The translations under genes and the position numbers were made by a program. Shown here piece after piece: positions 1 to 58,667 of a stretch of 64,000 bases of DNA. Positions within the stretch are counted from its first letter, which is position 1. Each line of letters starts with the position of its first letter. The notes beneath the pieces are model-generated. The model had not been told where the DNA came from and made no database searches. It saw only the letters and a list, made by a program, of their open reading frames with translations. This DNA comes from Acidobacteriota bacterium (GTDB taxonomy: Bacteria > Acidobacteriota > Blastocatellia > Chloracidobacteriales > JADJPF01), in NCBI GenBank assembly GCA_016213785.1, contig JACQZQ010000044.1, positions 62,001 to 126,000 of the forward strand. The letters are read 5' to 3'.

Positions 1-3000
1 AATATCTCAAATCCTGGCGGAATACCAAGATCAATCATCACCATATTTGCAGGCTTACTAGTGTTATTACGGATTGTAACGGTTGTTGTTGCTATATCAT
101 CTTGAGCTAAAGTACTACGGTCATATTTAACACTAATTGAAAGCGGTTCTATGGTTGCTACATCGTCTGATCTGCTCCAAGTTCTATAATAACGGCCTAC
201 AATTTGATAAAGCATTGATCCCTTACCAACAAAACTTATATTTATTTTGTTGCTACCAAACTGAGTGTAAGCTTTAAGGTCAAGTTGGTGCATAAGCTCA
301 TTGTTATCTTTGTTTATCTCTAAGTCGGATACTTTTTGACCATTAATATTTACAGAAATTATTCCTTGAGTCTCTCCCCCTCCAGCTTTTTGTTGTGAGA
401 GTATAAAAGCTTTTAATGAAAGGATAGTTGCTTGGGTTGAATGCCAATTTCCATAAGCATCTTTTTTATCAGTTAAATATTTTAATGCTTTAGTTGCAAG
501 GTTATTATTTCCACCCCATTTGATTAATGCTTGTGCTGCAAGTGCAGTAGTTTCAATATCTGCCATTGCTCCATGTGAATAAGTAGGGGTTTTTCCTTCC
601 TGTTTCCATAAAGCAGTTTTATCTTCTTGGGCTGCTTTAGCTACTAGGGCATTAAACATTTTACTTACCCAAGGTTGATCTTGATGGGAATCTATAGCGA
701 AATTACTTAGGATTGCTAAAGTATAAGCATCTTCTTGACCATTTAAGTTTTTGTCTATAAAGTTTTTAGCTCTTGTAATAGCTTCGCCTTTATATCCTGA
801 ATAAGCTAGTGCCCAAGCAATATAAGCGGTAATTCTGACTTGATCATTATGGAAATTATTAGTTGCACCTTCATCAATAAATTGTGTGTCAGGTGCCCAA
901 CTTCCATCAGCCTTTTGCTCAGAGGCTAACCAGTTTTGTGTACGCTCAATTACTCGAGGATCGACTTCATGGACTTTTGCCATATCATAAAATTCCATCA
1001 ACCCAAATGAAGTTAATATTTTATTAGCAGGCGCTTGACCAAACCAAGAAAACCCACCTCCAGGTACTTCATAAGTCACTAAACGTTGATAACCAGTAGA
1101 TATAAACCCTTCAGCCTTAACTTGAATTTCTGGAGTAATTTTCTTGGTTGTTTTCATATAGTCTAAAACTAAAATATTGGGGTAGGTAGTTGCTGATGTC
1201 TGTTCAAAACAACCACTAGGCATTCTTAACATACTGTCTAAACCTTCAACTACTTGGCTAAGTGGGCCAGGGTAGAACTTAACTAAAATCTTACTTGCAT
1301 CTACAATTGCTGTTTCTGGAATAAGGATTTCTTTTGAAATACTATTTTCTAAACGATCATTAACAGTAATGTTCTGTTGCTCTCCATTAGGTAAAATTTC
1401 TATTTGCCTAGAAATAGCATCCCCATTTGCTATAGAATCACGATTTGTTAAACGTGCAAAAACTGTAAGTTTTCCTAGTCCTAATTTTTTAGCTTGAATC
1501 CGATAACTTGATGCTGTTACCTCACCAGAACCAACACGAACTTGTTTTATAGGATTATCATCAACTAGTGTAAACCAGTCTTCTTGTTTAAGTTTAAGTT
1601 CAACATCTTGAGTATCGCCTAAGTAATTATACACTGCAACAGGAATTGAAACTGTATCATCTTGGGTTAAAGAAACTGGTAGATCTAAGTCAATAAAGAA
1701 ATCTTGGAAAACTTTAATTCCTGCTGTGCTACTACCTAGAGCACCTTGTTTAGTAGAAGCTAGCATAGTCATACGCCAAGTAGTTATAGAGTCAGCCAGT
1801 GGGACTCTAACTAGTACTCGACCATTTTTATCTGTAACTAGTTTTGGGTTCACATAAAGAGTTTCTGGAAAATAAGAACGCACCTTTACATCTCCACCAC
1901 CTTCTCCAGCACTTGCTTGAGTTTCAGCTGATTTAGCATCATCTTTAGATTTTTTAGACTCGGTTTTAGATAAAGCTTTTTTGTCTATATTGGCATCTAA
2001 ATCCATTGCTCTAGCAGGTCTATTAGCTGGAGCAGCAGCTACTTCTACCACATCACCCATAACTTCTGGTCTTACTAAACCTTCTACTCTAACACCATTT
2101 CTAGTTCTTATTTGATGACCATAATAGGCATTTAGGTAAAATACTATAGAAACATTAGCCTGTTTTTGTCCATAAATTGGAAAATAGAATTTTGGACTAG
2201 GATTACTACTATACCAGTCGCTTTCAAATTGATAATAAGAATAACTATCTTGTTTGCTTTGTAAAACTAACTTAAATTCTTGTCCTAGTGGGTCTATTAG
2301 ATCTTGTTTAGCTATATAGTGAGCCTGAGCGATTTTAGGTAATTCTGCTATTAAGTCTGTTTTAGCAGATTTATTTTCTACATAGTATTTGTTTATTCCT
2401 GCTACTACTTTTTGTAACTGTGTATTCATTAGCTGGTAGTATTTACTATAGTACTCAGGAGCTTTTGCTTCATAAACATCACGGCCTTGTTCTTTACGTA
2501 AACTATAAACATTAACCTCGCTTGCCGCAGCTAAAAGCACTTTAGCTGCTCTTTCACGTCTAATTAGCGCTTCTTGATCTTCATTATTTACTACAGGAAC
2601 AATGTTATGAGTATCATTATGAGAGTGAATTTCATAACGAGGTTTAAGTAGTTCTTGTTCTAGATAAAAGAACACTTTTTCAAGTCCAGGTTGTTTTTCG
2701 CTAAGTGCAAAGACTGCTTCATCAACAACTTGGACATCTAAAACCGCTGGTTTAGCTCGGCCAAGTTTATCTTTAACAGTCATTTCAATTTGTGCCTCTT
2801 CTCCTGGGCGGAATGACTCTTTAGCTATTTTGGTTTCAATTTGTAAATCATCAGCAGGATCAACAAAAATCAAACGACGGTCGCTAACTGGGTCAGCATT
2901 ACGACCAAAAATATAAGCTCTAACTTCTATTGTCCCAAATAAATCAGGAGTTAAGTCTAAGCTTGTAGTAGCTTTACCATTATCAAGCTCTAAAGCACGA

Positions 3001-13863: not shown

Positions 13864-14448
13864 TTAAGTACGAGTGAGTGAATTCCAAGCTGCATCTGCA
13901 AGTAGAGCGCTTGCCTCAGTTATATTAGTTTTTACCCTATTGGAAAGCCAATGGCGGGCAAATTCTTGGCTTGGCCCAATTAGAATTGATAGACAAACAT
14001 CAGCAGGTAAATCTTTAACTTTGTCCTTTTTTATGTGAGGTCTAAGCCATTTTGTAAATGCTTGGAAAGCGTCTTTATTCATTGCTTTAAGGTTAGATTT
14101 TTCCGCTCCTATAAATTCTGATTGACGGCTATGAAAAATATATTTAGCTAAATTAGCATTACTTGTAACCCATTCTAAATGATATATAACTAAGGCTTTA
14201 ATACCATTTTCAGCTTCATTATGTTTTTCTAAAACCTCTAGAAACCCTTCTTGGTAACTTCGTAGCCCTTCTAAATAGAGGCTAGCTGCAAGCTGTTCTT
14301 TGTTAGTAAAATGATGATAAATACTACCAATACTTGCTTGTGAACGTATACGGATTTCTTCAATCGTAGTAGCCTGAAAACCTAGCTCATTAAAACACTC
14401 TAGCGCTGTTTTAAGGATTGTTTCACGAGTAGATACTTTGTTTGCCAT
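13864..14448 (-). CDS. TetR/AcrR-family transcriptional regulator
   Basis: 194 residues. The N-terminal helix-turn-helix is textbook TetR: TRETILKTALECFNELGFQATTIEEI followed by ASIGSIYHHFTNKEQLAASLY. The C-terminal ligand-binding helices are variable and do not identify the inducer. Two perfect 15-bp palindromes lie just upstream of its start codon (14454-14481) and are the obvious operator, implying autorepression and control of the downstream amidohydrolase-like gene. The divergent AmrS gene starts 163 bases away, so its promoter region could also be affected. Confidence 0.93.
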   Translation of the reverse strand: MANKVSTRETILKTALECFNELGFQATTIEEIRIRSQASIGSIYHHFTNKEQLAASLYLEGLRSYQEGFLEVLEKHNEAENGIKALVIYHLEWVTSNANLAKYIFHSRQSEFIGAEKSNLKAMNKDAFQAFTKWLRPHIKKDKVKDLPADVCLSILIGPSQEFARHWLSNRVKTNITEASALLADAAWNSLTRT

Positions 14449-14453
14449 AGGTT

Positions 14454-14481
14454 TAGAATAATATTCTAGAATAATATTCTA
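14454..14481. promoter_or_regulatory. Double palindromic TetR operator
   Basis: Two identical perfect palindromes TAGAATAATATTCTA (14454-14468 and 14467-14481) overlap by two bases, giving a 28-base symmetric tract six bases upstream of the TetR start codon. A 13-bp centre-to-centre spacing would let two repressor dimers bind with an offset of slightly more than one helical turn, as in QacR-like cooperative binding. The assignment rests on position and symmetry. Confidence 0.65.
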
Positions 14482-14611: not shown

Positions 14612-17098
14612 ATGTCTAGTCAAAAAATTGGTTCAAGAGAAGAAAAAAAAGCAAAGCTAAAGATTATTGGCGATCAATTAGGACAATATACCCAAGAAGG
14701 CGAACTTTATGAAAAACTCTCTGATAGTAAAGTTTTTTGTTATTCCTGTGGTCATCGTTGCCGTATTGCTGATGGTTTAGCAGGTGTGTGTAAAGTCCGT
14801 TTTAACCAAGGTGGCAAATTATATGTACCTTGGGGATATGTTGCAGGGTTGCAGTGTGATCCAATTGAAAAAAAGCCTTTCTTTCATGCAATGCCAGGCA
14901 CAGATGCCTTAAGTTTTGGTATGCTAGGCTGCGACCTACACTGTGATTACTGTTTTACTGGAGAAACAATCATTGTTACTAATCAAGGAGTAAAGACTTT
15001 TCAGGAAATTTTTTCTACAGCAGAAAAAGTCTCTAAAATGCCAAATGTGGAGATAGCCTATCCTACAAACCTACAAGCTATTTCCCAATCAGGTAAATTG
15101 CAACAAGTAAGAGGAGTTTTTAAACATCCTTACAAAGATGAATTAGTTAAAATAACACCTTATTACCTACCAGAGCTATCTTGTACTTTTGATCATAGAG
15201 TTTATGCAACTACTAGCCTTAACGAGCCTCCAAGACTAATTAAAGCAGGAGAACTTACTCTTCGGCACTATTTAACAATACCTCGAAATTATGAGTTTTC
15301 TTCTCAAGAAATAATAAATGTTGGAGAGATATTGGGCAAACACCAAATAACATATAAGGTGTCTTGGGATTTATCTATGGAGGAACGAGAAGCCATTATT
15401 ATGACTAAATTAAATGGTGAAACATCTGGTCAAATAGGTGGTAGATTAGGTAAAGATCCTTCATACATTAGACAGGTTCGCAGCAAAATAAATAGGGGTA
15501 TGGGTGAAAATACTAGAACAGCTTGCTTTATGGTAGAGAGTGAGAAAATTCGGTTTCCTAATGAACATAAGCCTGGCATTCCTATAACTTTACCTTTAGA
15601 TATAAATCTAGCTAAATTATTAGGGTATTATTGTGCTGAAGGTTCTATAACAACAAATAAAGATCGCCCTAATAGTTATACGGTAAACTTTAGCTTTTCT
15701 CACAAAGAAACAGAATTAGCTAATGAAGTTATTAAACTTTTAGAAACCTGTTTTGGAGTAAAAGGACAACTGGTAAAACGAACTACTACGCTTGCTGTTG
15801 CTGTTGGTAAAGCCTCTTTAGGGTTATTGTTCAAAGCATTAATGGGGGAACAAGCAGAGTTTAAGTGTGTTCCTAAGCCTATTCTAAATGCACCTAAACA
15901 AATTATTGAAGTTTTTCTTAATGCTTATATTGAAGGAGGTGGTCATAAATATAGTAATGGCAAAGCTAGTGTTACTACTATTTCTAAAGAGTTTGCTTAT
16001 GGAGTTGCTTGGCTAGTACTAAAATTAGGGTATTTACCTTCTATATCTTGTAAAACTTTTGAAAAAGCCCACATAATTGAAGGGCGTTTGGTAAATAGAG
16101 CAACCCAATACACAATAGTTTGGTATGAAACTAAGGTTGTAAGAAAACTAATTGAAACAGAGTTTTATTATCTTGTTCCAATAAAAGCTATTAGCTTACA
16201 AGAGTTTGAAGGGGATGTTTACAATATGGAGGTTGAAGAGGAACATAATTACTTAGCGGGGTTTTTCTTAGTATCAAATTGCCAAAATTGGATTACGTCT
16301 CAAGTCTTACGTGATCCTAATGCAATAGCTCCTGCAAGGAAAATTTCTTCTGAACAAATGCTTGAAATAGCTGAAAAAGAAAATGCTTCTACAATTACCT
16401 CAACTTACAATGAGCCTTTAATTACTAGTGAATGGGCTATTTCTATTTTTAAGAAAGCTAAGGAAAAGGGTTTTTTAACCTCTTATGTTTCAAATGGTAA
16501 TGGTACTCCAGAGGTTTTAGATTATTTGCGCCCTTGGGTAGATCTTTATAAAGTAGACTTAAAAAGCTTTCGTGATAAGCATTACAGGGAATTAGGAGGA
16601 CTGCTTTCTAATGTTTTAGAGACTATTAAAGGATTAAAGGCTAGAGGATTTTGGCTAGAAATTGTTACTTTAGTTATTCCTGATTTTAATGATTCTCTAG
16701 AAGAACTTAAGGAGATGGCAGAGTTTTTAGTTTCTGTAGATCCCTTTATTCCTTGGCATTTAACAGCTTTTCATAGCGATTATAAAATGATGGATCGAGA
16801 CAATACAAATATTGCTACACTCTTAAAAGCCGCAGAAATGGGTCGAGAGGTTGGACTAAAATATGTTTATATAGGAAATGCCGCAGGAAGGGTAGGGGGT
16901 TGGGAAAATACTTGGTGTCATAATTGTGGGGAACTCTTAATTGAGCGCTATGCTTATCATATTAAGCAAGTTAACTTAAAAGCAGGTTGTTGCCCAAAAT
17001 GTAAAACAGAAATTCCTGGGCGTTGGTCTTCGCCTCGTTTTAAGCTAGATTATCAAATTGATAAAAATCACGGTCATATACATAGATTTGGGTTTTAA
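14612..17098 (+). CDS. amrS: AmmeMemoRadiSam-system radical SAM enzyme (AmrS) containing an intein
   Basis: The 828-residue precursor is a host protein of 385 residues plus a 443-residue intein (residues 114-556). Host features are an N-terminal cysteine-rich YSCGHRCRIADGLAGVC segment (residues 44-60), the radical SAM cluster motif C107-x3-C111-x2-C, the STYNEPLI and YKVDLKSF segments and a C-terminal zinc-like CHNCGELL...CCPKCKTEIP knuckle. The cluster motif is completed only after splicing: the third cysteine is C557, the first residue behind the intein, restoring CDLHCDYCQNW. AmrS proteins occur with AmrA and AmrB (Memo) and their chemistry is not established; neither partner lies in this window. 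An OsmC gene follows 21 bases later. The start has an AAGGAA ribosome-binding site. Confidence 0.92.
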   Translation: MSSQKIGSREEKKAKLKIIGDQLGQYTQEGELYEKLSDSKVFCYSCGHRCRIADGLAGVCKVRFNQGGKLYVPWGYVAGLQCDPIEKKPFFHAMPGTDALSFGMLGCDLHCDYCFTGETIIVTNQGVKTFQEIFSTAEKVSKMPNVEIAYPTNLQAISQSGKLQQVRGVFKHPYKDELVKITPYYLPELSCTFDHRVYATTSLNEPPRLIKAGELTLRHYLTIPRNYEFSSQEIINVGEILGKHQITYKVSWDLSMEEREAIIMTKLNGETSGQIGGRLGKDPSYIRQVRSKINRGMGENTRTACFMVESEKIRFPNEHKPGIPITLPLDINLAKLLGYYCAEGSITTNKDRPNSYTVNFSFSHKETELANEVIKLLETCFGVKGQLVKRTTTLAVAVGKASLGLLFKALMGEQAEFKCVPKPILNAPKQIIEVFLNAYIEGGGHKYSNGKASVTTISKEFAYGVAWLVLKLGYLPSISCKTFEKAHIIEGRLVNRATQYTIVWYETKVVRKLIETEFYYLVPIKAISLQEFEGDVYNMEVEEEHNYLAGFFLVSNCQNWITSQVLRDPNAIAPARKISSEQMLEIAEKENASTITSTYNEPLITSEWAISIFKKAKEKGFLTSYVSNGNGTPEVLDYLRPWVDLYKVDLKSFRDKHYRELGGLLSNVLETIKGLKARGFWLEIVTLVIPDFNDSLEELKEMAEFLVSVDPFIPWHLTAFHSDYKMMDRDNTNIATLLKAAEMGREVGLKYVYIGNAAGRVGGWENTWCHNCGELLIERYAYHIKQVNLKAGCCPKCKTEIPGRWSSPRFKLDYQIDKNHGHIHRFGF
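14951..16279 (+). mobile_element. Intein with LAGLIDADG endonuclease, inserted in the radical SAM motif
   Basis: 443 residues, from Cys1 (CFTGETIIVTNQG, block A) to Asn443 (ending FLVSN), with Cys as the +1 extein residue. Block B is CTFDHRVY (Thr192, His195 of the precursor). Block F/G is VYNMEVEEEHNYLAGFFLVSN, split only by its last residues. Between them lie a helix-turn-helix-like segment (about residues 256-296) and two LAGLIDADG motifs: LLGYYCAEG (337-345), with its acidic residue, and LNAYIEGGG (436-444), where Gly stands in the place of the catalytic acid. The penultimate residue is Ser instead of the common His. Splicing residues Cys1, Asn and Cys+1 are all present, so splicing should work; homing activity may be reduced. 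Confidence 0.93.
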
Positions 17099-56594: not shown

Positions 56595-58667
56595 TTATTT
56601 AGATTCTTTTGATAATAAGTCTTTTAACCAAACTTTAGCCGCAGTCAATTCACGTCTTACTGTTGCATCAGAAATACTTAAGAGCTTAGCTATTTGTTCA
56701 GATGTAAACCCGCCAAAGAAATTTAATTCTATTATTTGTGCTTGCCTTGGATTTATTTCTAAAAGCTTATTTAGTGCTTCTTCTAGTGCTATTAAATCCC
56801 AATCTTGTTGCTCAGATAAATAGGAAATATCCTCAATAGGAATTTTATAAAAACTTCCCCCTCGTTTAGCACTATTATGAGCTATAGCATAGTTCACTAA
56901 GATACGTCGCATAATACAAGCAGCAGAGGCTAGAAAATGTTTGCGATTTTCCCACTCTAGTTCTGACTCTACCATTTGGATATAGGTTTCATTAATAAGC
57001 GCTGTGCTTTGAAGTGTGTGATCCATACGCTCTTTTCTTATGTAACTAGCAGCTATTTTGTGGAGTTCTGTGTAAACTAAAGGTAGAAGTTTGTCTAGTG
57101 CTAATTTTTCACCATTATTCCACTCATTAAGTATTTGAGTAATGGATTGGTTATCAAGAAACTCTGCCATAGTATTATCATTAATAAAATCAGGCTTTAC
57201 TCCATTGGTGATACTAGCTGGAGTTATCTGATTAGGTGTTTCTGCATACTCACTTAAAGACTCATTTAAAGACTCATTTAAGGGTTCATCTAAAGATAGT
57301 TGACTAGAATCAATTCCTAGTAATAAAAGCATCTGTTCAGCAAATTGATTTGGAGTAGGGCGCTTTTTTGGGTCTTTAGCTAAAGTGCTCATAATTAGTT
57401 CTTCTAAAGGAGAAGAAATTTCAGGGTTTAATTTTCTAAGTGGGATAGGTTCTTGAGTTAGAAATGTTTTTATAATAGAGAAAAAGTTGGTAGGTTCTGA
57501 TAAAAAAGGTAGGGAGCCACAAAGCATTTGATAAGCTATAACGCCTAAACTATAAACATCAGCCTGTCCATTATAAGGTAGGTTTTCAAACCTCTCAGGA
57601 GCCATATAATTAGGTGTACCAATAAAATGGCCTGTTTGAGTTAAAGAGTCTTGAGAAAATCCTTCAACTTCACTAACAAGTTTAGCAATACCAAAATCTA
57701 CAACCTTAACCATTTCACCTTTTTGAGATTTATGTAAAAAAATATTATCTGGTTTAATATCTCTATGAACTATACCTAGTTGATGAGCTTTACTTAGAAC
57801 TTTACAAATAGGAACAATTATTTCAGCACAACGCAGTGGTGAGAAAATAGGCTTTTGTGACATTTCAGTAGCGAGAGTATGTCCTTCTAGTAACTCCATA
57901 ACTAAGTAGGCAATACCATTATCAGAAACTCCAAAGTCAAGAATTGTAACTACATTAGGATGGTTTACACGACAAGCTGAAATACCTTCTAGTCGAAATC
58001 TCTCTAGTGCTTGGCTGCTTTGGCTGCCTGTAAAAGGGCGAAAGATTTTTATTGCTACTAGATTTTGCAAGTTTAGATGAACAGCGCGATAAACTGCACC
58101 AAACCCACCTTTGCCTATTTTTTTTTCTAACCTATATTTTTTATCTAAGATTAAGCCTGGCAGTAACTCGACTAGAGTAGAAAAAACTTTGTCTGTACGT
58201 TTTTGTTCTTCTAACAAAGCATCTTTTTCTTTTTGTAGTTCTTGATATTGATGCTCTAATAGTTGGTTTTTTTCTTCTAGCTCTTTACGAAGAAAATGTA
58301 TAGTTAGCTGGTTTTCTACTCTTACAAGGACTTCTTCAACCTGAAAGGGTTTAGATATATAATCAGTTGCTCCTACCTTAAAGGCTTTAACTTTATCTAG
58401 CACATCATCCATAGCACTAATAAAAATCACTGGTATTTTACTAGTAACAGAGTACTCTTTTAGTTGCTGACAAACTTCATAACCACTCATTTCTGGCATT
58501 GAAATATCTAGTAAAACTAAATCAGGTGGGGCAGTGCGTATTGCAGTTAAAGCACGGATTGCAGAGCTAGCTTTTCTAACTTTATATTGATGCTCTTTTA
58601 AGATTTTTTCTAATACATTTATATTATCTATATTGTCATCTACAATAAAAATATCTGCTTTAACCAT
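56595..58667 (-). CDS. Receiver-Ser/Thr kinase-sigma factor fusion protein
   Basis: 690 residues in four parts. Residues 1-122: receiver with phosphoacceptor Asp54 (LVLLDISMPEMSG) and Lys in YISKPFQ. Residues 123-165: coiled coil. Residues about 178-450: an apparently active Hanks-type kinase, with GKGGFGAVY, VAIK Lys207, HRD 301-303, DFG 324-326 and GTPNYMAPE. Residues about 505-690: a sigma-70-like domain of the TIGR02999 type, with region 2 (LHKIAASYIRKER, ALINETYIQ) and region 4 (LNFFGGFTSEQIAKLLSISDATVRREL). Thus phosphorelay input, kinase and promoter-recognition output are on one chain. Its ATG shares one base with the stop of the upstream histidine kinase. Confidence 0.93.
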   Translation of the reverse strand: MVKADIFIVDDNIDNINVLEKILKEHQYKVRKASSAIRALTAIRTAPPDLVLLDISMPEMSGYEVCQQLKEYSVTSKIPVIFISAMDDVLDKVKAFKVGATDYISKPFQVEEVLVRVENQLTIHFLRKELEEKNQLLEHQYQELQKEKDALLEEQKRTDKVFSTLVELLPGLILDKKYRLEKKIGKGGFGAVYRAVHLNLQNLVAIKIFRPFTGSQSSQALERFRLEGISACRVNHPNVVTILDFGVSDNGIAYLVMELLEGHTLATEMSQKPIFSPLRCAEIIVPICKVLSKAHQLGIVHRDIKPDNIFLHKSQKGEMVKVVDFGIAKLVSEVEGFSQDSLTQTGHFIGTPNYMAPERFENLPYNGQADVYSLGVIAYQMLCGSLPFLSEPTNFFSIIKTFLTQEPIPLRKLNPEISSPLEELIMSTLAKDPKKRPTPNQFAEQMLLLLGIDSSQLSLDEPLNESLNESLSEYAETPNQITPASITNGVKPDFINDNTMAEFLDNQSITQILNEWNNGEKLALDKLLPLVYTELHKIAASYIRKERMDHTLQSTALINETYIQMVESELEWENRKHFLASAACIMRRILVNYAIAHNSAKRGGSFYKIPIEDISYLSEQQDWDLIALEEALNKLLEINPRQAQIIELNFFGGFTSEQIAKLLSISDATVRRELTAAKVWLKDLLSKESK

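Follow-up and report, generated by a model that had tools for sequence, protein, structure and literature searches.

A class-1 intein at the third cluster cysteine of an AmrS-like radical SAM enzyme: a probable homing element whose site may confer redox sensitivity as a by-product

Does an intein that lies at a cluster cysteine of a radical SAM enzyme act as a sensor of cell state, or is it mainly a parasite of conserved DNA? The question is raised by one gene in the stretch of 64,000 nucleotides analyzed here (hereafter the window), which comes from an Acidobacteriota bacterium of the Blastocatellia (GCA_016213785.1, contig JACQZQ010000044.1). In a profile search the precursor scores 259.6 bits against NCBIfam TIGR04337 (AmmeMemoRadiSam radical SAM enzyme, cut-off 220) and 54.3 bits against the Radical_SAM profile, with the TIGR04337 match confined to the two flanks, as two stretches, and intein profiles lying in between. 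The features of the gene, all on the forward strand and in window coordinates, are as follows.

14612..17098 (+): precursor open reading frame, 828 aa in a single open frame; radical SAM enzyme of the AmrS/TIGR04337 family, interrupted by an intein
14612..14950 (+): N-extein, residues 1-113, ending in CDLHCDY; cluster Cys107 is position -7 and Cys111 position -3
14930..14953 (+): CDLHCDYC, with cluster Cys107 and Cys111 followed by intein Cys1 (residue 114) at the place of the future third ligand; Cys-3/Cys1 is the candidate redox pair
14951..16279 (+): intein, residues 114-556, 443 aa; class-1 Hint domain with an inserted LAGLIDADG endonuclease
15182..15196 (+): block B, Cys191 (intein Cys78) and TFDH (TxxH)
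15602..16051 (+): LAGLIDADG homing endonuclease region, approximately residues 331-480; motif 1 LLGYYCAEGS, with Glu343 kept
15938..15940 (+): motif-2 Gly443 (GGT), giving GGG where GDG would carry the catalytic Asp
16211..16279 (+): blocks F/G, GDVYNMEVEEEHNYLAGFFLVSN, with terminal Asn556 and penultimate Ser
16280..17095 (+): C-extein, residues 557-828, beginning CQNW; Cys557 is +1 and the third cluster ligand once spliced

The first-pass annotation had placed the intein at 14951-16279 (residues 114-556), and both the open reading frame and the profile boundaries agree with this exactly to the base. NCBIfam intein_Nterm covers residues 114-198 at 28.7 bits (cut-off 24.5) and intein_Cterm residues 535-557 at 17.8 bits (cut-off 15.6), while Pfam Intein_splicing matches the same stretch at 32.7 bits, just below its cut-off of 35.8; a Pfam LAGLIDADG_3 match lies inside the intein. 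The splicing residues that the annotation had pointed out are in place as Cys114 (codon 14951-14953), Asn556 (16277-16279) and Cys557 (16280-16282), and together with T192-F-D-H195 they make up the full class-1 set. The fold points the same way. An AlphaFold2 model of the intein, built from an alignment of 19 sequences, has a pLDDT of 88.5 and a pTM of 0.85 and superposes end to end on solved endonuclease-bearing inteins (best 7qsu with Z 36.7 and 2cw7 with Z 34.7); in the 2cw7 alignment, model residues 13..455 fall on 1..537, with Cys114 on residue 1 and Asn556 on the last residue. A Hint fold is thus confidently predicted. The combination of Hint domain and LAGLIDADG endonuclease is shared with the TliVMA/PhoVMA and PI-PkoII inteins (7qsu, 7qst, 2cw7) at Z 32-37 over 320-360 residues, although those inteins sit in other hosts and are only about 20% identical to this one.

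Removal of residues 114-556 in silico gives GCDLHCDY|CQNW: the intein separates the second cluster cysteine from the third, and its excision restores the contiguous C-x3-C-x2-C of CDLHCDYCQNW, as had been proposed. The alignment to intein-free homologues that was set beforehand as the test of this proposal bears it out, with C-x3-C-x2-C-[QH]-N at the site in all 34 of the 34 homologues fetched, and with the same-subfamily empty alleles reading CDLHCDYCQNW (L090) and CDLHCSYCQNW (L091). At the DNA level empty alleles run straight through the junction. The window has an insert of exactly 1329 nt there; in most relatives it measures 1335 nt, and two mini-inteins take up 474 and 555 nt. About 20 other genomes share this very junction, which excludes chance. 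Inteins have landed repeatedly on the third cysteine of the radical SAM motif.

The explanation in which we have high confidence is that a class-1, endonuclease-bearing intein at CxxxCxx^C of AmrS splices canonically and is mainly a homing parasite, any redox sensitivity being a by-product. Its anatomy, site, distribution and selection are observed directly; that it splices, moves or regulates anything is inferred. Cys114 would attack the Tyr113-Cys114 bond, the N-extein would be transferred to Cys557, Asn556 would cyclize to release the intein, and the exteins would be ligated as CDLHCDYCQNW, leaving active enzyme with an ordinary cluster motif. The enzyme's activity almost certainly depends on this reaction because 443 residues break up the radical SAM core, and the earlier argument holds: since the +1 Cys supplies the third ligand of the spliced product, an active enzyme should require splicing. 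The stronger statement that no cluster can assemble until splicing finishes goes too far, however: Cys1 itself fills the place of the third ligand, CDLHCDYC is intact both before and after excision, and a cluster could therefore in principle form on the precursor.

Two residues call for some care in predicting that the intein splices. A penultimate His is common in class-1 inteins but is no strict requirement, and the window intein has Ser555 in its place; since the penultimate residue is Ser in 18 of the 21 full-length AmrS inteins (Lys in 2 and His in 1), Ser appears to be a conserved variant of this group. Block B reads TFDH in the window as against T-P-[DE]-H in nearly all relatives. In the copies compared Cys1, TxxH, Asn and Cys+1 are all kept, one copy having a block A deletion. 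The endonuclease has fared less well, with only one of the two catalytic acids of an active LAGLIDADG enzyme left: Glu343 is retained, while in place of the motif-2 Asp the window copy has Gly443, unlike every other full-length copy compared, so the window's endonuclease is probably inactive.

These same departures (penultimate Ser, TFDH and the lost endonuclease Asp) could be read as marks of a relic whose insertion killed splicing and inactivated the gene, as could the fact that the intein-bearing gene is the only AmrS gene found in the window's genome. We consider this reading hardly credible, given a single open frame with intact splice residues, an extein dN/dS of 0.07-0.08 across the genus, and the presence of the intein in both species compared. 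The second species is represented by a congener (JAHFUF010000053, Blastocatellia) with an intein at the same site that is 79% identical, the exteins being 90% identical. Between window and congener the intein has a dN/dS of 0.17 and a dS of 0.68, and the N-extein a dN/dS of 0.08 and a dS of 0.68. The low ratios imply that both intein and N-extein are coding and under purifying selection, and the equal dS fits an intein that was already there when the two species diverged, intein and N-extein alike being under constraint.

Beyond the genus, the same AmrS codon is occupied in Acidobacteriota, in Anaerolineae and other Chloroflexota, and in Rokubacteria, and the split TIGR04337 profile was found in 8 of the 195 relatives searched. 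Mini-inteins without an endonuclease occupy the AmrS site in one member of the Acidobacteriota (L073) and one of the Chloroflexota (L116). In a tree of the exteins, monophyly of the intein-bearing rows is rejected (AU p = 1e-6), full, mini and empty states change into one another at least 7 times, and empty alleles are nested among occupied ones. Such mixing of intein-free and intein-bearing genes is as expected of a homing element, and from the patchy distribution we infer transfer of the intein between genomes. The loss of the endonuclease Asp in the window, and of the first endonuclease acid in another copy (L037, CAGG), fits a homing cycle of invasion, fixation and decay. The intein would then persist mainly as a parasite of highly conserved active-site DNA, being gained, lost or shrunk to a mini-intein repeatedly, with the window copy caught while its endonuclease decays and its splicing residues are retained. 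Searches of phage and plasmid sequences and of IMG/VR for a carrier of the whole intein gave distant endonuclease matches only, or none.

Some copies in relatives may be broken or misassembled. In L054:5001-6212 (the same gene as L034) the AmrS intein is about 57 residues short in block A with the frame left open, which is either a true deletion or an assembly error, and the L057 copy is frameshifted.

In a second family of radical SAM proteins, a related intein, 32-33% identical to that of the window, is inserted at the corresponding third cysteine (CNLKCVFC^...CQNF) in Acidobacteriota and Chloroflexota (L092:835-3198, reverse strand; L111:1168-3546, forward strand), although the exteins of the two families are only about 20% identical. 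No NCBIfam host model matched this second protein confidently; we take it to resemble PflX/COG1313. Similar partial-profile matches occur in the Rokubacteria-group genomes G896, G899, G900 and G912.

With the site established, the question of control can be addressed. The first-pass annotation had suggested that splicing could respond to redox state through the +1 Cys that serves both splicing and the cluster. This puts the chemistry in the wrong place, the likelier pair being Cys111 (-3) and Cys114 (1), as in the trap of the Pyrococcus abyssi MoaA intein, which is reported to form a disulfide between Cys-3 and Cys1 and to stay unspliced when oxidized (Callahan et al., 2011, as recounted in PMC3922620 and PMC10663303). 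The AmrS intein has the same geometry in CDYC, with Cys-3 and Cys1 invariant in 21/21 full-length copies, and by analogy redox trapping may occur here as well. One may go further and suppose an evolved switch, in which the oxidized Cys111-Cys114 disulfide keeps the precursor unspliced, so that enzyme forms only under reducing conditions favorable to the cluster. The MoaA disulfide lends this some plausibility, as does the fact that Cys-7, Cys-3, Cys1, Cys+1 and a block B Cys (intein Cys78) are all invariant in 21/21 full-length AmrS inteins. However, the need of the enzyme accounts for the invariance of Cys-7, Cys-3 and +1, and splicing for that of Cys1, with no sign of selection for a switch; the block B Cys is absent from the mini-inteins at the same site; and related genes manage without an intein. 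The Cys-3/Cys1 pair is itself no evidence for evolved sensing since any intein at this site acquires it automatically, Cys-3 being taken over together with Cys-7. The story that splicing protects the enzyme from oxidants is also weakened, because two purified radical SAM enzymes, viperin and HemN, withstood superoxide as well as hydrogen peroxide but not copper(I) (PMC9576991). Redox sensitivity is not universal among class-1 inteins (PMC6195587). We therefore regard an evolved redox switch as doubtful. The block B Cys was also considered in its own right as the mark of a special redox design; it is missing from the related second-family intein as well as from the mini-inteins, may simply follow ancestry, and was set aside as a lead only.

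The metal response that had been raised alongside takes the form of a precursor in which Cys107, Cys111 and Cys114 serve as ligands for a soft metal or a [4Fe-4S] cluster, blocking Cys1 until the metal leaves. The contiguous CDLHCDYC of the precursor, with Cys1 as third ligand, would allow this, and mycobacterial DnaB inteins are reported to be reversibly inhibited by zinc (PMC7360933). Against it, the radical SAM barrel is broken right after the motif, and the single-sequence model of the whole 828-aa precursor is unusable at a pLDDT of 33 and so offers no reliable picture of such a site; we hold this form of gating to be very improbable. A wider proposal is that, with Cys1 standing in for the third ligand, the cluster loop gates splicing, whether by forming the Cys-3/Cys1 disulfide or by loading CxxxCxxC1 with a metal or Fe-S, and that an intein family spread over several radical SAM enzymes and phyla would thereby report on cellular redox or iron. 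This also seems improbable to us. Under the preferred explanation of splicing and homing, the Cys-3/Cys1 CxxC could still confer redox-sensitive splicing, which we regard as a by-product of the site.

The first-pass annotation knew of no earlier description of an intein at this site in AmrS, and for the AmrS host gene this stands: a search of the literature on radical SAM and AmrS inteins, which left subscription papers mostly outside its reach, returned no description of one. Neither the site nor the idea is without precedent. In P. abyssi the intein of MoaA likewise sits in a radical SAM host, with an N-extein Cys-3 that pairs with Cys1 in the CxxC geometry seen here, but its host is an archaeal MoaA and redox trapping is reported there, whereas in AmrS it is only presumed; the two sites are probably identical, judging from the description of Cys-3 and the radical SAM motif. 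The intein-containing tetraether lipid synthase Tes (NCBIfam NF045703) has an intein at the same radical SAM cysteine by profile alignment on both sides (query 107-474 to profile 149-508; the C-side junction of L111 to profile 566-634), yet the AmrS precursor falls far below its cut-off and so belongs to another family. More distant parallels are mycobacterial SufB, an Fe-S assembly host with oxidation-sensitive splicing, and mycobacterial DnaBi1, in which one residue both takes part in splicing and coordinates Mg in the host protein (PMC6195587). Both hosts lie outside the radical SAM enzymes, and the DnaBi1 disulfide is Cys48-Cys118, unlike the candidate Cys-3/Cys1 pair. MoaA thus already provides a radical SAM enzyme whose intein forms a CxxC redox pair, and the AmrS allele joins that kind. 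The third-cysteine landing site now takes in AmrS, from three phyla, as well as a second radical SAM family; by description, MoaA and Tes use it too. Full-length, mini and empty alleles of one enzyme family make the question of sensor or parasite testable side by side.

Other inteins were noticed along the way. The window's own genome has a second one (L043, G000:C42), with a penultimate His and Ser+1, in what looks like a DnaB replicative helicase, and endonuclease-bearing inteins occur in SufB-type-looking Fe-S assembly proteins of Acidobacteriota and Chloroflexota (L070, L071, L113).

The name AmrS given to the host is a fair one, with TIGR04337 above its cut-off and both AmrS partners in the window's genome: AMMECR1 scores 135.7 bits on a contig other than that of the intein gene, and adjoining it is a weak Memo match (28.5 bits against 27). 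This assignment is by profile, and we treat the reaction as putative rather than established, since the subfamily motif FGMLGCDxHCxYCQNW is distinct from the GTAGCNLxCxFCQNWDIS of the high-scoring AmrS type and the Memo profile has no match in the genomes of several intein-bearing relatives. The idea of a conserved gene neighborhood was discarded, since OsmC adjoins AmrS solely in the congener among the loci compared.

Upstream of the radical SAM gene lies a divergent TetR gene (13864-14448, reverse strand), and between the two are two head-to-tail copies of TAGAATAATATTC (14454-14479), a tandem pair of which none is expected by chance. The pair may be a TetR operator, through which the radical SAM gene could be controlled as well. 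Elsewhere in the window, an unusual 690-aa frame (56595-58667, reverse strand) fuses a response regulator receiver, a Ser/Thr protein kinase and an ECF sigma factor.
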